IMG/VR virus record: IMGVR_UViG_3300037230_000042
Coordinates: 1-29,134 of that record
Length of the DNA stretch: 29,134 bases
Reading direction: 5' to 3' (one strand)
Source: a virus
Part shown: piece after piece, positions 1 through 29,134 of the stretch
How positions within the stretch are numbered: the first letter of the stretch is position 1
Layout of the letters: every line of letters begins with the position of its first letter
Made by a program: the position numbers and the translations under genes
The notes under the pieces: generated by a model
What the model saw: the letters and a program-made list of their open reading frames with translations, nothing else
What the model was told of the DNA's origin: nothing
Database searches by the model: none

Positions 1-50
1 TCTTGACTTGCCATTCTGTCACCACAACGTATGGTCATATACTTACACCG

Positions 51-199
51 CGCCACCACGTACTGTCACGTTCGGCATCGCGCCACCACGTACTGTCACG
101 TTCGGCATCGCGCCACCACGTACTGTCACGTTCGGCATCGCGCCACCACGTACTGTCACGTTCGGTATGCGCCACCACGTACTGTCACGTTCGGTACGC
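51..199. repeat. Five tandem copies of a 30-bp iteron-like unit
   Basis: Five head-to-tail copies of a 30-bp unit with the core CCACCACGTACTGTCACGTT. They start at about 51, 81, 111, 141 and 170. The first three are identical; the fourth has a T for C change and is one base shorter; the fifth differs at its end. There are no spacers, so this is not a CRISPR array. The 30-bp period is close to three helical turns and would place a bound protein on one face of the DNA, as with replication iterons or operator arrays. All three plus frames stay open through the repeat only because the unit length is a multiple of three. Function is inferred. Confidence 0.85.
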
Positions 200-425
200 G
201 ACCGGGCCCCGCGGCGGAAGCCGCAACCTGCTCGTTCTCCCCTGATTTAGCGCTCTTTTCTTGCGCTTTCGGGCCTGGCTTGAGCTCCAGGTGGTCGCAA
301 AAGCCAAGACCCATGCCCGCCCGCCACCCGCGATTATATATACGGGCGACCGTCCTGTCTACCACCTTGAGTAGTCATTGGGGGGTAGGGGGGTCACTCG
401 ACGGGAAAAGTTAGTTTTTGGTGGT
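200..425. other. Non-coding spacer with a TATATA stretch and paired G runs
   Basis: I see no convincing gene here. An isolated AT-rich stretch, TATATA at 335-340, stands out in GC-rich DNA and could be part of a promoter or melt easily, but no good -35 partner was recognised. At 380-393 two runs of six G are separated by TA, which could form a G-quadruplex. The stretch lies between the 30-bp repeats and the palindrome cluster, so it is probably part of the same control region. Confidence 0.4.
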
Positions 426-535
426 TGGTGAACCAGGGGGGTCGCAAGTCCGCGTAATCACGCAGAATGATCCACGTGGTTCACCAATTGGTTCACCAAA
501 ATACACCGCGATTTTGGTGAACCATTGGTCCACCA
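426..535. promoter_or_regulatory. Cluster of five TGGT-N2-ACCA palindromic operator-like sites
   Basis: Five 10-bp palindromes fit TGGT-NN-ACCA: 426-435 (GA centre), 477-486 (TC), 489-498 (TC), 515-524 (GA) and 526-535 (CC). GA and TC centres are the same site read on opposite strands. Start-to-start spacings are 51, 12, 26 and 11 bp, so two pairs are about one helical turn apart. Such clustering upstream of a rightward late gene block is what binding sites for a dimeric phage repressor or activator look like. The protein that would bind is not identifiable in this window. Confidence 0.7.
489..524. promoter_or_regulatory. Perfect 14-bp inverted repeat with 8-nt loop
   Basis: The arms 489-502 and 511-524 are exact reverse complements (TGGTTCACCAAAAT and its complement) around the loop ACACCGCG. 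Each arm contains one of the TGGT-N2-ACCA palindromes, so the DNA could extrude a cruciform or the RNA could fold into a stable hairpin. No T tract follows, so a standard intrinsic terminator is not supported. It may simply reflect two opposed operator sites. Confidence 0.6.
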
Positions 536-700
536 GTCGACCGTTCGGTCATGCTCGCCCACTGGCGCAGCTATCGCGGGGTTGGGTCTTGGCCGATCCG
601 GCCAACGCTAGACCATCTGGGGGCCGGCGTGCAAGAGTGGAGGGTGAGAGCGTGGCCGCAGCCGTCGCGCGTCGGCTCGGCCCGCTCCCTCACCACGCCC

Positions 701-928
701 ATGTTCAAGCTCCTCCAGATGCGATGCGCCTCGTGTGGGCACGAGCAGGAAGAGCTTGTGCAGCGCGGAGAGGTTGTCGCCTGCGTCCTGTGCCCCGGCA
801 CTATGATCGCGGTCTTCGCATCCAACACCGTGCCGCACAATCCGGAGGTGGAATCCGTGATGCAGGTCCGCGGCGTAAAGCGAGCGAACGTTAGCGACAC
901 GGTACGCCATCGCGTTCGGAACGGCTGA
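701..928 (+). CDS. Small zinc-ribbon protein (Com/FmdB-like)
   Basis: A 75-residue protein with two CxxC pairs, C9/C12 (RCASCGHEQEELV) and C28/C31 (ACVLC), spaced 15 residues apart, typical of a single zinc ribbon. The N-terminus resembles phage Mu Com-like and FmdB-like zinc-ribbon proteins, which bind nucleic acid or act as small regulators; the exact role is unknown. The start is uncertain. The frame is open from 551, and ATG 719 and GTG 644 are alternatives; none has a clear Shine-Dalgarno site. ATG 701 was chosen because the residues just before the first CxxC resemble known family N-termini. It ends seven bases before the terminase start, as expected for a gene in the packaging block. 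Confidence 0.55.
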   Translation: MFKLLQMRCASCGHEQEELVQRGEVVACVLCPGTMIAVFASNTVPHNPEVESVMQVRGVKRANVSDTVRHRVRNG

Positions 929-934
929 CGGCTG

Positions 935-2608
935 ATGGCTCAGTGGCCGAGAAGTAAGACGGCAGAAGAGCGGGCGAAGCTGGCGAAGCCAAGCTACGAC
1001 TGGCTTGGGGACATCAAGCCGACGCCGCAGGTTGAGGATCCGCTGCTCGATGCGGAGGCGCGGGTAACGTCGCGCAAGATCGTCGCGGAGCCAAAGGAGG
1101 TCGAGCCGCTGGAGGGGTTGGCTGCCGTGCGCGCCAGCTTCCGCGCTGCCGTCCCCGGTGCTCGCACCCCATTCGACTACCTCGATGAACTCGATCGCCG
1201 ACTCGTAGCCGCGGGTGGCTGGCCGGAGACGTCGGATTGGTGGAAGGCTGCGCTGGGGCGATTCTACAGCTCGAGCTGCGTCCAATTCGTCGTGCGCGTC
1301 GGTAGGCGCGGAGGAAAATCGTCCTCGCTCTGTCGAGTGGCCGTACTCGAGGCACTCATGGGTGAGTACGAGGTGGCGCCGGGCGACACGGCCACGGTCG
1401 CGATCATCAGCGTCGACACGCGCGAGGCGAAGGACAGGATCGTCACGATCGACGCCATCCTTGGCGTACTCGGGGTCAAGTGCAAGACATTGACGGAGCG
1501 CATCGACCTCGCTGATGCGCCTATCGCGTTCCGTGTGTTCACTGCGACGATCAGCGGCGTCTCCGGATTCAGCGGCATCTGCGTCATCTGTGACGAGGTT
1601 GCGAAGTGGAAGGACTCGAAGGAGCGAGCGAATCCCGCCGAAGCGGTGCTCGCCAGCGTACGGCCCACGATGGCCGGGCTTCCGCACGCGCGCATCTTTC
1701 TTCTGTCGAGCCCGTGGAAACGGAGGGACGCGCATGCGAGGGCGTTCGCGGAAGGTGATACAGCCTTTCAGCGCGTTGCGTTCGCGGAGACGTGGGTCGC
1801 ACGTCCAGCGCTCACGATCGACGATACAAGGCGGCTCGCACCAACGTCGCGCGAATGGGAGCGCGAGTACGCGGCGATCCCGATGGAGGACGAGCCCGAC
1901 GGGCTCTTCACGGCGACCATGCTCGATGCGGTGACGCGCTCCACCCGCGAGCTCCCGCGCGATCCGTCGGTCCGCCAATACGTCGCGGCAATGGGCCCTT
2001 ATCTAGCGCGCAACACGTGGACGCTCGTCATTGCAGGACGACGTCGCGACGAGAAGCGCGTGCGCCGGAGCATCGTCGCATGCCGGGAATGGCGCTCGGG
2101 TGTCCCTCTCGATCCGTCCACCATCCTGCCGCAGATCCGCTCTCTCTGCGCCAGCTACGGCGTCTCCGAGGTCTACTCGGATGCGGCCGGCGCTCCATAC
2201 CGCGATCATCCGGCGCGGGATGGGCTGGCGATCCATGTCCTCCCGCAGCCGCGCATGCTCGAGAGCGCGATGGCGATGCTGGCCCGCGTGTGCGATGGGG
2301 AGGACGAGCTGCCGCCGGATCCGCTATTGAGGGAGGATCTGCTCTCGCTCTGCCTCGACGCTACGCCGCTGGGGCAGTCGCTCCAACTCCCGAACATCGA
2401 CGAGCCGCGCCGCGCCGACTTCGCGCTGCCGGCAATGCTCGCGCTCGACCGATGCCTCGTCGATCCCGTGATGGCGGAGCGGCCACGGAGCGAGGCGGAA
2501 TACTGGGCGCAAGACGAGGCGGCGTGCCAGGCGCGTGACCTTCAGCGGTATGGCGGAGGCGGAGGAGACTGGCTGGAGAAAATGGCGGACGACTTCAATG
2601 GCGGATAA
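935..2608 (+). CDS. terL: Terminase large subunit
   Basis: A 557-residue packaging motor: an ATPase that drives DNA into the prohead plus a nuclease that cuts the concatemer. The Walker A motif is GRRGGKSS (residues 123-130), the Walker B motif is ICVICDE (215-221), and LLSSPW (256-261) fits the coupling motif. The C-terminal RNase H-like nuclease begins near residue 349. D416 in YSDAAGA fits the second acidic position and D495 in RADFALP may be the third. The first acidic residue, usually Asp just after the first strand, appears as Gly in AAMGPYLARNTWTL. Length is normal for the family. No separate small terminase gene was recognised; it may lie left of the window or be too divergent. The ATG follows the upstream stop closely, so translation is probably coupled. 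Confidence 0.93.
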   Translation: MAQWPRSKTAEERAKLAKPSYDWLGDIKPTPQVEDPLLDAEARVTSRKIVAEPKEVEPLEGLAAVRASFRAAVPGARTPFDYLDELDRRLVAAGGWPETSDWWKAALGRFYSSSCVQFVVRVGRRGGKSSSLCRVAVLEALMGEYEVAPGDTATVAIISVDTREAKDRIVTIDAILGVLGVKCKTLTERIDLADAPIAFRVFTATISGVSGFSGICVICDEVAKWKDSKERANPAEAVLASVRPTMAGLPHARIFLLSSPWKRRDAHARAFAEGDTAFQRVAFAETWVARPALTIDDTRRLAPTSREWEREYAAIPMEDEPDGLFTATMLDAVTRSTRELPRDPSVRQYVAAMGPYLARNTWTLVIAGRRRDEKRVRRSIVACREWRSGVPLDPSTILPQIRSLCASYGVSEVYSDAAGAPYRDHPARDGLAIHVLPQPRMLESAMAMLARVCDGEDELPPDPLLREDLLSLCLDATPLGQSLQLPNIDEPRRADFALPAMLALDRCLVDPVMAERPRSEAEYWAQDEAACQARDLQRYGGGGGDWLEKMADDFNGG

Positions 2609-2632: not shown

Positions 2633-3085
2633 ATGACCGCCGCCGCCGTCTCCTCCGTGTTCGTCGTGCGCCCCGAAGCCTCGGGCGAGCGCGGTTTCGT
2701 CCTCTCTGCCTGGGCGCGCACGAGCCGCGAAGTGTACGAGCGGAACGAGGGCCTGAACTGGAGGGCGTACCAGGATCGGATGATGATCGAGATCCTCCAG
2801 CGCCCCTCGACCTCCGTCCGTGTCATCTCCGTCAATGGCGACGATGCTCTCGCCGGATGCGTGGTGCTCGCCGATGGTCTCCATGGTCCGATGCCGGCGA
2901 TCGTGTACCACCTGTTCGTGCGCAAGGAAGCGCGGCGGATGGGCCTCGCGAGACTGCTGCTGGGGCGCCTGATCGACGCGGACGGCGTAGGCTTTACGGA
3001 GCGGACCCCGGTCGGTATCATCCCCCCACGCCGCTGGCGGTTCGTCCCGAGGGCGAATTTTTTCGACATGACGCAAGGAGCGTAA
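2633..3085 (+). CDS. GNAT-type N-acetyltransferase
   Basis: A 150-residue protein with the acetyl-CoA-binding motif A of the GNAT superfamily: strand VYHLFV followed by RKEARRMGLARLLL (97-110), where the R-x-x-G-x-A/G loop binds the pyrophosphate. A central strand (VRVISVNGDDALAGCVVLAD, 62-81) and a C-terminal segment with aromatic residues complete a small GNAT fold. It sits between terminase and portal. Acetyltransferase-like genes are seen at this position in other podoviruses, but their substrate is unknown. The start has no strong Shine-Dalgarno site. The fold call is fairly secure; enzymatic activity is inferred. Confidence 0.75.
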   Translation: MTAAAVSSVFVVRPEASGERGFVLSAWARTSREVYERNEGLNWRAYQDRMMIEILQRPSTSVRVISVNGDDALAGCVVLADGLHGPMPAIVYHLFVRKEARRMGLARLLLGRLIDADGVGFTERTPVGIIPPRRWRFVPRANFFDMTQGA

Positions 3086-3089
3086 AACG

Positions 3090-3404
3090 ATGCCACCTCC
3101 CGCAGCAACGCCCGGGCCGCGTTTGGCCCTCAACGTGACCTTTCGCGACGGCGTGCGCGTATCGCCCAAGGGTGGCGGCGCGCGGCCGACCCGCGTGTCT
3201 GCAGGCGACCCGAGCTTTCGCGGTGGCCGCATCGAGATCCATGATGACCATGTGGTGCTCGCGAGCCTCGACATCGACATGACGACGGGCGAACTGTTCA
3301 CGGCCTATGTGCCGATGAGCAACGTGGTATACTGGGAACCGCTCAGCGCAAAGATGCGCGAGAAGCTGTACGGCGGCGGCAAGGTCGAGGCGGCGGCCGA
3401 ATGA
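3090..3404 (+). CDS. Small hypothetical phage protein
   Basis: A 104-residue protein I do not recognise. The N-terminus is Pro/Gly/Arg-rich and probably disordered; the middle (RGGRIEIHDDHVVLASLDID, about 45-64) looks like a short beta hairpin domain, followed by a basic C-terminal helix. A good Shine-Dalgarno site, AAGGAG, lies 10 bases before the ATG. It overlaps the next gene by four bases. Its place between terminase and portal suggests a head-assembly or packaging accessory role, but nothing in the sequence shows which. Confidence 0.75.
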   Translation: MPPPAATPGPRLALNVTFRDGVRVSPKGGGARPTRVSAGDPSFRGGRIEIHDDHVVLASLDIDMTTGELFTAYVPMSNVVYWEPLSAKMREKLYGGGKVEAAAE

Positions 3405-3688
3405 CAAGCGTGAGCATCACCCGCGGGCTGGCCCGCATGTGGCTCGAGACGTTTCTGAAGGCGCGCGACCTCGCGAACCTTCAACTCGACATGGCGTACG
3501 TGTTCCGCGAACTGGCGCACGAGTACCGCGAGAAGGCGATCGAGAGTTCCCGAGCGGCCGGAGCGGCGGCGCTGAAGCACGCGCGATTCGTCGACATGGA
3601 GGCGCCCGACGCGCTCGACGTCATCACGCCGAAGATCCTCGCGGCACTCGAGGCGCGGTGCGACGAGGAAGTGGAAGCGGCGCAATGA
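3401..3688 (+). CDS. Small helical hypothetical protein
   Basis: A 95-residue, mostly helical and charged protein. The stretch ARDLANLQLDMAYVFRELA (about 21-39) and the following residues could form a helical hairpin. No known family recognised. It starts in an ATGA overlap with the preceding gene and ends in an ATGA overlap with the next, so its translation is coupled to both. A small helical protein just before the portal could be a packaging or assembly factor, even a divergent small terminase, but there is no helix-turn-helix that I can point to. Confidence 0.72.
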   Translation: MTSVSITRGLARMWLETFLKARDLANLQLDMAYVFRELAHEYREKAIESSRAAGAAALKHARFVDMEAPDALDVITPKILAALEARCDEEVEAAQ

Positions 3689-3924: not shown

Positions 3925-5825
3925 GCACGGTCGCCCTCAAGGGCGTCTCCGACCTCAAGTCGCGCGATGCTCGGTGGTACCTCCCCGAGTTCGCCGATAG
4001 GCGCGGCGAGCGCGTGCAGCAAGTTGCCGCCCATTTTTGGCGCGAGTCGAGGCCGCGCCGCGAGAACTATGCGCGCTACTGGTCGCTCTACTCGAACCTC
4101 CCGCTTCCCGGGCTCACCCCGCGCAAATACAGCCAACGCGTTGCGGGGCTCGCGAAGGGCAGGCTTTGCCTGAACGCTTGCTCGTCCGTCGTCGATGCGT
4201 ACGTGGGCATGGTCACGGCGCAGCGGCCCAAGGTGATGTTCGCGACGTCGGGAGCTGACTGGGATCTCCAGCAACGAGCGAAGTCGCTCGAGAAGTTCAA
4301 CGAGGGCGTGCTCTTCGAGAACGACTTCTACGAGATGACGCCGCTGCTAGAGGCGGACGTTGGGATCTTAGGCACCGGCATCGTCAAGACGTACGCCGAT
4401 TCGGACGGGCCCGACGCGCGGATCATCCACGAGCGCCTGATGCCGTTCTACCTTTTTTGCGACGACGAGGAAGCCCAGGCCGGCGACCCGCGTTGGCTCG
4501 GCGAGCGTCGCTACATCGATCGCCTGGTGGCGATGGCGACATGGCCCGAGTTTGCGACCGAGATCGCCACCGCTGCGCGCGAAGCCGAAGATCCGGACGA
4601 GGGCTACGGCGACGATCCGCAGACCGACACCGTGTGCGTGACCGAGATGTTTCACATTCCGAGCGGGCGTGGGCGGTGGGGCCGCGGTGGTCGCGACACG
4701 GGCGACGGCATGCACTGCATCGTCGTCGGTACGACCGTCGTGCTCGAAGAGGATTGCCAGCGATTCCCGTACGAGATGGTCTATGCGCAGCTCCCGGAAA
4801 GCGGGATCTGGGGACGCGGCTTCGTGGAGCAGATCCAGGGCATCCAGTACGAGATCAACGTCATCATGAACATGATCCGCGCGGCCTTCCGGATCGCCGG
4901 CTCGGTCCGTTGGATCACCGAAGCTTCCTGCATGCTCAACTTCCTGCAGGTCTCGGACATCATCGGCGGGCGCATGACGTACACGGGCCCGACCGCGCCG
5001 CAGCCGCTCGTCCCCCCCGCGATCGGGCAAGAGGTTTACTCGCACCTCGATCGACTTTGGCAAAAGGCGTTCGAGGTCCCGGGCATCTCGCTGCTCACAG
5101 CGACGAGCAAGGCGCCACCGGACGAGGAGAGCGGCAAGGCGAAGCAACTCCGTCTCGACACGGAGACCGAGCGCTTCCAGGTCGCCGTCCATCAGTATTT
5201 CAACCTCCCGCTGCGTCTCGCGCGGAATCAGACGATCCCGCTCGCTCGCGAGCTCGGCGAGAAAAACGCGGCCTTCAGCGTCAAGTGCATCACGAAGCGC
5301 ACGATGAGCGTGGTCAAGTGGGCCGACGCGCACCTGTGCGAGAACGACTACGCGATCAAGCTCTACCCGGTCTCCGCGTTCTCCGACGATCCGGAGGCGC
5401 GTATGCAGGACGTCGAGGACGCTCTCAACTCCGCCAGCCCGCTCATCACACCGCAAGAGGGTCGAAGGCTCCTCAACGATCCGGATCTCGAGGAGTTCGA
5501 GAGCCTGGCCGATGCGTCGTATGACCTCACGATGCAGATGGTTACGGACATCCTTACGCGGGGCAAGTACCAGCCGCCCGAACCGCTGATGGACCTCGCC
5601 GATGCCGTCAAGCGGGCGCAAATGGCTTACCTCAAGGGTCGCCGCGCTGGCGCCCCCGAGGATCGGCTGCAGATGCTCCTCGAGTGGATGGAGCAATGCA
5701 AGGGCCTGATGCCCCCGCCGCCGGTCGCGCCTCCGCCTCCGCCGGGGCCGCCCATGCCGCACCCCATGATGAACGGCGCCCCGCCCGGCGCTGGACCGCA
5801 ACCCCAAGCCCAGATGGCAGCATGA
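3921..5825 (+). CDS. Portal protein
   Basis: A 634-residue portal: the dodecameric ring through which DNA is packaged and ejected. The sequence shows the usual arrangement: an N-terminal helical region, the VDAYVGMVTAQRPKVMF segment near residue 90, the clip-side motif GILGTGIVKTYAD near 148, a beta-rich wing, then helical stem and crown segments including a GKAKQLRLDTETERFQ helix near 410. The last 40 residues are almost pure Pro/Met/Gly/Ala, probably disordered. The start is GTG in a GTGA overlap with the preceding stop; the Shine-Dalgarno site GAGGAGG lies just upstream. Length and order (terminase, portal, scaffold, coat) fit podovirus-type portals. Confidence 0.9.
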   Translation: MSTVALKGVSDLKSRDARWYLPEFADRRGERVQQVAAHFWRESRPRRENYARYWSLYSNLPLPGLTPRKYSQRVAGLAKGRLCLNACSSVVDAYVGMVTAQRPKVMFATSGADWDLQQRAKSLEKFNEGVLFENDFYEMTPLLEADVGILGTGIVKTYADSDGPDARIIHERLMPFYLFCDDEEAQAGDPRWLGERRYIDRLVAMATWPEFATEIATAAREAEDPDEGYGDDPQTDTVCVTEMFHIPSGRGRWGRGGRDTGDGMHCIVVGTTVVLEEDCQRFPYEMVYAQLPESGIWGRGFVEQIQGIQYEINVIMNMIRAAFRIAGSVRWITEASCMLNFLQVSDIIGGRMTYTGPTAPQPLVPPAIGQEVYSHLDRLWQKAFEVPGISLLTATSKAPPDEESGKAKQLRLDTETERFQVAVHQYFNLPLRLARNQTIPLARELGEKNAAFSVKCITKRTMSVVKWADAHLCENDYAIKLYPVSAFSDDPEARMQDVEDALNSASPLITPQEGRRLLNDPDLEEFESLADASYDLTMQMVTDILTRGKYQPPEPLMDLADAVKRAQMAYLKGRRAGAPEDRLQMLLEWMEQCKGLMPPPPVAPPPPPGPPMPHPMMNGAPPGAGPQPQAQMAA

Positions 5826-26413: not shown

Positions 26414-27268
26414 TCAGGCGCCCATCGCGACCAGCACTCGCCCGACGACGAGCCCGCACTGCGGCACCACGGCGTTACCGAGCGCCCGCAGCTTGGCCGG
26501 TCGGTCTGGAACCTTCACGTCGCCCCCGACGGCGCGCGGCGCTTCCCACGCGTACTGGGCTTCGCCTCGGCCGGCGGGGAAGGCGTGTCCAGCCACGTCG
26601 AAGGGAAGCCCATGAGCGTCGCCACCCACGCCGGATTGAGGCGTCCCGCGCTCGGTCTCGGGTAGAGCCCCTTCACCGCGTCCGCGAGCGTCGTGCCCGA
26701 GTGCCGCCCGCTCTCCGTCCCGTACGCCGCCGATCCAGCGCTGTGCTGCACCGTCGGTGTCGGCCACAACGAAGATGCGGAGTCGTCGGTGAGGGGCCCC
26801 GACGTCGATGGCGCCGAGAGGTACGGCCCTGGGTCGATAACCTCGATCGACAAGCTCTTGCACCACGCGAGGAAGCCAGCGCTTGGCCCCCGACGCGACG
26901 TTCTCGATTGCGAGGAACCGAGGCTGGATCTCGTCGATGATCCGGAGGAGGTGGTGGAGCGTGAAGCCGCTGCGTGTTTCCTTCCCGAGCCCGGCTCCTT
27001 TGCCGGCGCTCGAGACGTCCTGGCAGGCGAACCCCCCACAAAGGACATCGACGTTTGGTGGGTAGCTGACGGTCGCGACATCGGAGAACCTCTGCACGTT
27101 GGGGAAATGGTGGGCGAGTACGCGGGAGCAGAACGGATCGATCTCGCACTGCCAGGTGATACGCGCAGGCAGACCCGCCTCGGCGAATGCTGCGAGCACG
27201 CCGAGTTCGAGGCCGGCGATGCCGCTATAGAGGGAGCCGATTCGTCTCACTTCGATCTCGATGCCCAT
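26414..27268 (-). CDS. DNA cytosine-C5 methyltransferase
   Basis: A 284-residue Dcm-type enzyme that transfers a methyl group from S-adenosylmethionine to C5 of cytosine. Motif I is SLYSGIAGLELG (12-23); motif IV is GGFACQDVSSAGK (78-90) with catalytic Cys82, Ala replacing the usual Pro before it; motif VI is ENV (122-124); motif VIII is APHRRLRIFVVA (158-169); motif X is RALGNAVVPQ near the C-terminus. The target-recognition region between VIII and X is short, so the recognised site is probably small. The start at 27268 is chosen for AAGGAGG a few bases upstream; the open frame runs 22 residues further. No cognate restriction enzyme is next to it, so it probably protects phage DNA from host restriction. 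Confidence 0.88.
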   Translation of the reverse strand: MGIEIEVRRIGSLYSGIAGLELGVLAAFAEAGLPARITWQCEIDPFCSRVLAHHFPNVQRFSDVATVSYPPNVDVLCGGFACQDVSSAGKGAGLGKETRSGFTLHHLLRIIDEIQPRFLAIENVASGAKRWLPRVVQELVDRGYRPRAVPLGAIDVGAPHRRLRIFVVADTDGAAQRWIGGVRDGERAALGHDARGRGEGALPETERGTPQSGVGGDAHGLPFDVAGHAFPAGRGEAQYAWEAPRAVGGDVKVPDRPAKLRALGNAVVPQCGLVVGRVLVAMGA

Positions 27269-27290
27269 CTCATCCTCCTTCGTGCGCATG

Positions 27291-27572
27291 CTAGCGCGGT
27301 GTCTGTCCGTACCTACGCTCAGCCTTATCCGCACGGTCCCTCAGGTCGTTAGCAAGCGCTGGGTACTTGGACTCGCACGCATCGGCATACGCTCGGGCCG
27401 CAGGTACGGCGAACGGGTCATGCTGCCAGTCGAGTACGAAGTACTCGCAGAACTGATGCTTCATCCCAACTTCGCTTGACCCGTCCACACGTTCGACCTT
27501 GAACTTGTGGTAGACGCCTACGTCCCACCCGACACTGTCAGCGGCACACACGACTCTCGACTCCTCGTCCAC
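27291..27572 (-). CDS. Small hypothetical protein in the minus-strand operon
   Basis: A 93-residue protein, soluble and charged, with FCEYFVLDWQHDPFAVPAAR (about 41-60) followed by a helix (AYADACESKYPALANDLRDR). I recall similar small phage proteins with a 'YFVLDxxHDP' core and no known function. The start is GTG 27572, chosen because AAGGAGG lies five bases upstream; the open frame continues further upstream over the 3' end of the adenine methyltransferase without such a signal. It lies 22 bases before the cytosine methyltransferase and 35 after the adenine methyltransferase, so it is in one operon with both. Confidence 0.65.
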   Translation of the reverse strand: MDEESRVVCAADSVGWDVGVYHKFKVERVDGSSEVGMKHQFCEYFVLDWQHDPFAVPAARAYADACESKYPALANDLRDRADKAERRYGQTPR

Positions 27573-27607
27573 CTGGCCTCCTTCGCGCGCACTCGTCCAA
27601 AGCGCCG

Positions 27608-28183
27608 TCACCGTGGCGGCGCCCACAAGCATGCGCCTAGTTTCGAGAAGGCTCCAGCAAACTTTTGCGGAGACGTGTCGTCGACGCGATTCGGCATGTA
27701 TATGATCGCGTTCGCATGCGTCGGACCACCGCCAACTTTGAGCCGCTTCGAGCCTGCCTCGACGTAGAAAAAGCAAAGGCGCTTGGACGGAATGCAGAAC
27801 GGCAGACTCATCGCGGACAACGGGCAGCCCGCTTGGCTCACCTGCAAAAATTCGACGTTGAAAGCGAGAAAAATCGCCTGCGACACACGCTCCTGCAGAT
27901 ACTCCTCGCAGAGCTTGATCCACCAAAGCTTGGTGCGTGACCGTGCTCGCTCGTCCTTGCCTCCAGGTGGGTTGAGATACACGCGCCCATGCCACGGCTG
28001 AGAGAGACCGTCCGTCTCCTTGGTAAAGAAACGTGTCGCGCCGACTACTTCAGTGTTCGCCTGCTCACAGCTCGCCGGGTCTAGATCGATGCCGCCCATC
28101 GTGTTGCGAGCGGCGCTGATTACGTCCGTTGGCGTGTAGTGCTCCACCGTGGAACTTAAGTGCTTCGCCACTACCTTGAGCAT
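27608..28183 (-). CDS. Phage-type DNA adenine-N6 methyltransferase
   Basis: A 191-residue protein matching the phage Dam-like family that methylates adenine N6: EHYTPTDVISAA near the N-terminus, IDLDPAS (32-38), ATRFFTKETDGLSQPWHGRV (49-68) and the catalytic motif YLNPPGG (69-75), a form of (D/N)PPY with Gly in place of the aromatic residue. The C-terminal part contains conserved hydrophobic strands. It starts 13 bases inside the 3' end of the RecE-like gene, so the two are translationally coupled. Probable role is protection of phage DNA or marking for replication or packaging; target site unknown. Confidence 0.85.
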   Translation of the reverse strand: MLKVVAKHLSSTVEHYTPTDVISAARNTMGGIDLDPASCEQANTEVVGATRFFTKETDGLSQPWHGRVYLNPPGGKDERARSRTKLWWIKLCEEYLQERVSQAIFLAFNVEFLQVSQAGCPLSAMSLPFCIPSKRLCFFYVEAGSKRLKVGGGPTHANAIIYMPNRVDDTSPQKFAGAFSKLGACLWAPPR

Positions 28184-28962
28184 GGCTCATCCCGTTCCCA
28201 CTCCGGCACCTCGAGCGGCTCTGCCATCCGGTCCAGGTACCCAGGCCACACCCCGCTCGCTATGCACTGCCGCACCATCTCCGCCCACCGATGTAGCGAC
28301 CGGCGCCCGGAATCGAGCGCCGCTGCGGACACCGGCAGGATCGTCACGGCATGCGGAGGCGCGGGCTCGACACCGATCAGGTACGCGCGCCGCGCCGGGA
28401 TGTCGAGCGCTTCGCACGCGTCGAGATAGGCCGCTAGCTGCGCGTGCCACAGCATCTTCCACGCGTGCCTCGCGAACGTCGACGGCTCCGTGTCCGTCAC
28501 CTTGAGATCGGCCACAAATGGCTCGCCCTCGGTGAGGTCGCATCCCACGCCGAGCAGATCGATGCCGCCGCGGACGCCATTGATGCCGGCCGCCATCGGG
28601 AGCCCATACGCCTCCCACTGGAGTGCGAGCTGATACGTGCCTCCCACGAGTAGCTGACGCGCGAGCGGATGCGCCAGCACTGCGCGCGAAGCTCCGGCAG
28701 CGTCGTCCCACTCGGATTTGATGCACGTGATCTCTCCGGCATGCGCGGCCGCGAACGCATCCCATCCGGCTCCCTGACGCACCTTGCCCGGATAGAGCGC
28801 ATAGCCTCGGTCGCCGAATACCATGCAGTCGGTCACGGCTCCGACCCGCATGGGCCGCGTGACCTCGCGCGCATCGAGGCACGCTTGGTGGTAGTGGGCC
28901 GGGCTGCGAGCCATCTGCTTTAGCTCGGAGAAATGGACGCGGTTATCGATTGGATTTTTCAT
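28171..28962 (-). CDS. RecE-like PD-(D/E)XK exonuclease
   Basis: A 263-residue protein resembling the C-terminal nuclease domain of exonuclease VIII (RecE) and DUF3799-type phage nucleases, which resect double-stranded ends to give 3' tails for single-strand annealing. The N-terminus has FSELKQMARSPAHYH (11-25). The active-site elements fit E117 in LQWEAYG, D135 in GGIDLLGV, and D152-x-K154 in VADLKVTD, followed by the AWKMLWHAQLAAYLDA helix with Gln175. Residues VGAVTDCMVFGD take the place where a His is often found. ATG 28962 is chosen after GGGGGTTTTT; an in-frame GTG lies upstream in the repeat. No annealing protein partner is seen; it may lie beyond the right end. Confidence 0.78.
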   Translation of the reverse strand: MKNPIDNRVHFSELKQMARSPAHYHQACLDAREVTRPMRVGAVTDCMVFGDRGYALYPGKVRQGAGWDAFAAAHAGEITCIKSEWDDAAGASRAVLAHPLARQLLVGGTYQLALQWEAYGLPMAAGINGVRGGIDLLGVGCDLTEGEPFVADLKVTDTEPSTFARHAWKMLWHAQLAAYLDACEALDIPARRAYLIGVEPAPPHAVTILPVSAAALDSGRRSLHRWAEMVRQCIASGVWPGYLDRMAEPLEVPEWERDEPCSR

Positions 28963-28975
28963 AAAAACCCCCGTC

Positions 28976-29134
28976 CCGACCCCGACCACGACCCCGACCA
29001 CGACCGCCAGTACCGCTGCTTACGACCTCGCGTCATGATGGCACCTCACCGCGACCCCGACCACGACCACGACCCCGACCACGACCCCGACCACGACCAC
29101 GACCGCGACCCCGACCACGACCGCGACCGCGACC
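28976..29134. repeat. NCGACC hexanucleotide repeat in two blocks
   Basis: Five perfect NCGACC units occupy 28976-29005 and fourteen more occupy 29051-29134, reaching the last base of the window. A 45-bp non-repeat insert separates them. In every unit CGACC is constant and only N varies between A, C and G, never T. Both blocks are upstream of the RecE-like gene on the minus strand. The end of the sequence inside the repeat suggests that the array continues and that assembly may have stopped there. Confidence 0.9.

Follow-up and report, generated by a model that had tools for sequence, protein, structure and literature searches.

Five TGGT-N2-ACCA palindromes ahead of the late genes of an IMG/VR phage: a candidate replication origin or initiator-binding array

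What is the role of a tight group of short palindromes standing in the non-coding DNA just ahead of the late genes of a phage? The question is raised by an IMG/VR virus record that was studied as a whole (29,134 bases, hereafter the window) and that is a linear contig representing a genome fragment. The initial annotation had described five TGGT-N2-ACCA palindromes within 110 bp, had noticed no further copies, and had read them as an operator set for a dimeric regulator of the rightward transcript. An exact search of the 29,134 bases has placed all five copies of TGGTNNACCA at positions 426-535 and found no other copy, in agreement with the first two observations. Site 1, TGGTGAACCA with the centre GA, occupies positions 426-435 on the plus strand and is isolated, 51 bp before site 2. 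Sites 2 (477-486) and 3 (489-498) both appear as TGGTTCACCA on the plus strand with the centre TC, are therefore assigned to the minus strand, and form doublet A at 12 bp. Doublet B comprises site 4 (515-524, plus strand), which is again TGGTGAACCA with the centre GA, and 11 bp further on site 5 (526-535, plus strand), which is TGGTCCACCA with the variant centre CC. The start-to-start spacings are 51, 12, 26 and 11 bp, and the two pairs spaced 11-12 bp that had been described were thus recovered. The half sites are identical as claimed, whereas the claim of a variable two-base centre holds only in part. GA on one strand reads as TC on the other, which makes sites 1 to 4 a single 10-mer, TGGTGAACCA, in the orientations +,-,-,+, and leaves the site at 526 as the sole exception.

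The sites, their geometry, their statistics and their confinement to one place in the window were all established by computation. The expected count of TGGTNNACCA in the 29,134-base window is 0.13 +/- 0.37 against five observed, so the motif does not occur at the background rate, and five or more copies were found in 0 of 100 dinucleotide shuffles. In a look-elsewhere control, every palindrome family with 4-base arms and 0-12-base centres was considered in 60 simulated 29-kb sequences; the best 110-bp cluster held two members in 57 runs and three in the other 3 runs, against five here.

Further, the doublets 477/489 and 515/526 mirror each other around position ~506. This mirrored arrangement produces a perfect 14-bp inverted repeat (489-502/511-524) and a strong fold at 477-535, with z values of -5.4 as RNA and -5.0 as DNA. 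The stretch 476-525 has a GC content of 0.44, the lowest among the 50-bp segments of positions 26-1025 (tied by the first 50 bases of the contig), and lies in a genome of 60-70% GC. The identical, two-fold-symmetric sites within one control region make it well supported that the five form a binding array of one dimeric DNA-binding protein. This part of the earlier proposal stands, whereas the regulator gene that it implied was not found among the window proteins scanned.

The array sits in the 5' non-coding stretch preceding an ORF at 551-928 and the terminase gene at 935-2608, which bears out its placement ahead of the late genes. The first rightward ORF (551-928, plus strand) is small and zinc-ribbon-like (CxxC..CxxC), with a weak eS27-like similarity and an uncertain start codon; its protein has no Pfam or PHROGs match and, used as a search probe, gave no matches. 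The terminase large subunit gene (plus strand; phrog_2, 5e-9) begins the packaging and structural genes, and further to the right lie the portal gene, the capsid gene (assigned by similarity to an equally placed protein of relatives), other structural genes and an endolysin-like glycoside hydrolase gene. At the far end of the window, Pfam and PHROGs scans identified an exonuclease VIII/PD-(D/E)XK gene (28171-29001, minus strand), which is followed leftward by a Dam-like DNA methyltransferase gene (27608-28183, minus strand) and then by a C5 DNA methyltransferase gene (26414-27334, minus strand). The methyltransferase pair (26414-28183, leftward) adjoins the exonuclease gene, and upstream of the latter, at 28969-29134, strand-asymmetric ACCACG/ACCCCG hexamer repeats reach the right contig end, where the assembly may have stopped on account of them.

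In the transcriptional surroundings, a strong sigma-70-like promoter was found on the minus strand at 361->333 (TAGACA-N17-TATAAT, 11/12, a consensus match only), and the array sites lie 65-174 bp upstream of its -35 hexamer. On the plus strand no sigma-70-like promoter was found near 400-550, in a scan for the sigma-70 consensus that leaves room for phage-specific promoters. The proposed control of the rightward transcript was therefore not borne out, as no such promoter overlaps or follows the sites and the only strong one nearby points left. Scans for sigma-54 promoters, DnaA boxes and IHF sites gave nothing near the cluster. Downstream of the leftward promoter lie five tandem 29-30-bp repeats (CGCGCCACCACGTACTGTCACGTTCGGCAT, 49-197), each with the palindrome ACGT-N6-ACGT, and minus-strand stops occur in all frames between this promoter and the contig end. 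These leader repeats are possibly a second five-member site array and iterons too; as a probe, the 30-bp repeat gave nothing beyond 19 bases matched by chance within coding DNA. The main window ORFs scanned against Pfam and PHROGs include no transcription regulator, the gntR family included, and the window proteins scanned include no replication initiator, the contig being a fragment without replication genes.

A role in replication, which was absent from the initial annotation, is suggested by the recurrence of both the motif and its 11-12 bp spacing in phage initiator genes. IMG/VR was scanned for TGGTNNACCA doublets 11-12 bp apart, which yielded at least 119 stretches, 108 of them with a covering ORF. 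A control scan used ACCANNTGGT, in which the two half sites are exchanged, and gave 114 covering ORFs among the matches listed. The enrichment counts from both scans are samples, taken among the matches listed, and the 108 loci include some near-duplicates. Among these matches, the DnaD-like helicase loader family phrog_5708 accounts for 29 of 108 ORFs with TGGTNNACCA against 3 of 114 with ACCANNTGGT, and phmmer likewise assigns 30/108 and 3/114 to the DnaD-like type. All three control matches also carry a TGGTNNACCA array, so that the independent controls come to 0/93 among the matches listed. Other initiator families account for further TGGTNNACCA-doublet ORFs among the matches listed; in the control, a few genes of such families are present and portal proteins are the commonest family, again among the matches listed. 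Among non-redundant arrays in initiator genes in the matches listed, the 11-bp spacing was found 12 times and the 12-bp spacing 14 times. As the two are about equally common, the spacing is tied to the helix rather than to codons. Most triple clusters in IMG/VR, with spacings divisible by 3, were set aside because they resemble coding repeats (for example Gly-Gly-Pro and Gly-Thr-Pro).

The arrays in the DnaD-like genes have 2-5 sites and often carry TAGGTAAGGATAG-like strand-asymmetric repeats at their flanks; this combination is likely to be an intragenic origin design. Genes with 2-5 sites 11-12 bp apart are those of loci L014, L022, L078, L097, L118 and L123, and TGGTATACCA arrays are intragenic in the DnaD-like initiators of, for example, L078 and L097. 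In most such phages the motif is confined to the initiator array (for example 2 copies within 45 kb, or 3 within 44 or 50 kb), just as it is confined to one array in the window, and the central bases in this group are mostly AT, TA or CT, against GA and CC in the window. No strand-asymmetric opening repeats of the kind seen beside these arrays adjoin the window array.

Close relatives of the window phage were not recovered. There is no nucleotide relative in the phage collection, nor one of window positions 1-935 in distant mode, and the plasmid collection gave no nucleotide relative other than a single 33-base match to 646-678. Searches with terminase and portal by tblastn against the phage collection gave no matches. 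Terminase relatives share ~35-50% identity with the window terminase, and at this distance the TGGTNNACCA doublet was present in 0 of 10 of their records and genomes. Prophage terminases were found in Myxococcota, and no array was detected in those checked.

Two phages with related terminases have arrays of other palindromes in their replication-initiator genes. In L191, CTCGCGAG occurs at 4575, 4586 and 4617 (array 4575-4624); these are the only copies in 21 kb, and two of the three are 11 bp apart. In L187, the initiator gene has two copies of GAAACGTTTC together with GAAAC repeats at 769-1000. Like the window array, these are tandem palindromes confined to one place, with the same 11-bp step in L191, but they differ from it in sequence and lie inside the initiator gene. 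The most informative relative, G003, has no copy of TGGTNNACCA. Its contig L310 has a helicase/primase-like gene that is interrupted by a frameshift; immediately after it come four 46-bp repeats with CTGAC-N6-GTCAG, which GGTTCC/GGAACC dyads join within 3065-3480, and this region precedes a late operon beginning with the endolysin gene. Repeats and dyads thus crowd the DNA in front of the late genes in G003 as well, with another sequence; G003 seems to have a different replication module. In the same relative, L311 13049-13657 repeats the endolysin gene of L310 3519-4169 in inverted orientation at the contig end, which probably reflects either faulty assembly or an end that is palindromic.

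Taken with the window data, these comparisons lead us to favour, tentatively, a phage replication origin or initiator-binding array (iterons) over a pure transcription operator. The origin reading gains from the identity of the motif, its spacing, its uniqueness in the window and the initiator arrays of the terminase relatives, and is weakened as the initiator gene and an opening repeat are absent from the fragment. The low GC content at the array and the repeat-rich DNA next to the helicase/primase-like gene of G003 also speak for it, whereas the seemingly different replication module of G003 speaks against it. Dimeric binding to semi-palindromic iterons is reported for initiators of the RepA_N/DnaD-like type (PMC7145576; PMC5703833), and tandem palindromes about one helical turn apart, as expected of iterons, are seen in the window in the doublets of 12 and 11 bp. 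The window array shares tandem short palindromes with DnaD-like/RepA_N origins (those of phage DnaD-like helicase loaders, of the plasmids pSK41 and pTZ2162 and of the satellite PLE), and with phage DnaD-like genes it shares the identical TGGT-N2-ACCA at 11-12 bp. It differs from these origins in lying outside an initiator gene, in its mirrored doublets and GA/CC centres, and in the fragment having neither initiator nor opening repeat. The array is not inside any recognisable initiator gene; the contig begins at position 1 and the sequence to its left is missing. In the satellite PLE the iterons are also in a non-coding region (PMC7145576). The window phage would be tied to the DnaD-like group by motif and geometry, and not by homology.

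If the array is an origin, dimers of an initiator winged-helix domain would occupy both doublets, with the two dimers of a doublet roughly a helical turn from each other and facing the same side of the DNA. The mirrored layout would bring the two doublets together and put strain on the A/T-richer DNA that separates and flanks them, and helicase loading may follow. The isolated site at 426, which is nearest to the leftward promoter, may serve transcription control by the same protein. We infer the identity of the protein, its binding, the strand opening and the origin activity from these sequence features.

The next explanation is a transcription operator, in which a dimeric repressor or activator (GntR/FadR, HTH or ribbon-helix-helix) would bind the five sites cooperatively and control the late rightward promoter, the leftward promoter or both. 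This is possible, though we regard it as less probable than an origin. The array is intergenic, with the leftward promoter on one side and the late operon, read rightward, on the other, and the sites have perfect two-fold symmetry. Moreover, regulators of the FadR subfamily of GntR bind TKGT/ACMA boxes, and the GntR, HpxS, HypR, MdcY, PrpR and UxuR groups have 2 bp between GT and AC (PMC4494728); the core TKGT-N2-ACMA is matched exactly by TGGT-N2-ACCA, so that the window sites have the palindrome of this operator type with its 2-bp centre (PMC4494728). These operators are single sites, whereas the window has five, including two doublets 11-12 bp apart, and no GntR gene was found. A literature match to SCO3932/KorSA was dropped, as the matching sequence is a PCR primer. 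Operators of the lambda OL/OR type resemble the window array in that a single intergenic region, close to divergent transcription, contains several dyads. They are 17-bp sites spaced over 20 bp, whereas the window has 10-bp dyads one turn apart and no repressor gene was seen. Against an operator it also counts that the sites are free of any overlapping sigma-70-like promoter in the rightward direction, that the leftward -35 hexamer is as far off as given above, and that the scan of the window proteins turned up no regulator. The spacing of 11-12 bp would be tight for separate dimer footprints of 17-20 bp, and an operator gives no reason for the presence of both motif and spacing in initiator genes. 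Autoregulation is common among initiators, so that origin and operator roles may coexist at the array.

A wider form of the origin reading is that TGGT-N2-ACCA at one-turn spacing is an origin code common to the winged-helix initiators of otherwise unrelated phages, placed here outside the initiator gene, where the packaging genes begin, and coupling the start of replication to the late-gene/packaging switch; on the present comparisons we consider this rather unlikely. 

A start site for packaging (pac/cos-like) read by terminase is very unlikely. It draws on the position of the array, with the terminase large subunit gene 400 bp downstream, and on three phage loci. Non-coding motif doublets lie between the terminase small and large subunit genes at 5570-5591 in L009 and in the related L046, and in L114 a non-coding doublet at 1606-1626 adjoins the terminase small subunit gene, between it and the replication genes. 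However, none of the window genes was recognised as encoding a terminase small subunit, and the doublets between terminase subunit genes in the phages of L009/L097 and of L067/L071 are second ones, as the L009 phage and the related L067/L071 also hold the motif in the initiator gene.

Equally improbable is an RNA element, in which the 477-535 hairpin would act as a terminator, attenuator or leader structure. The fold is very stable as RNA, but it arises because the dyads are mirrored. Each site is palindromic by itself, the isolated site at 426 needs no hairpin, and pairing of 477 with 526 leaves two central mismatches. The hairpin has no T run and received no terminator call, and an intrinsic terminator was dismissed as a GC-rich hairpin with a T run was not found. 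No Rfam family matched at the curated score, the sole Rfam match being a sub-threshold one to the NiCo riboswitch. A chance or mutational repeat without function, for which no supporting evidence was found, is hardly credible in view of the observed count and the simulation maximum of three, of the variant site at 526 which retains both half sites despite its different centre, and of the 379 Myxococcota genomes, in which triple TGGTNNACCA clusters number 2, both of them regular periodic repeats.

No paper linking this motif with initiators was found in the open literature, where such a paper may still exist. Sequence alone seldom suffices to locate a phage origin, least of all in an uncultured phage. 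DnaD-like genes account for about a quarter of the listed IMG/VR matches to TGGT-N2-ACCA repeated every 11-12 bp, and the doublet motif may hence serve as an origin finder. For the phage of the window, the outcome is a defined 110-bp candidate origin or operator.
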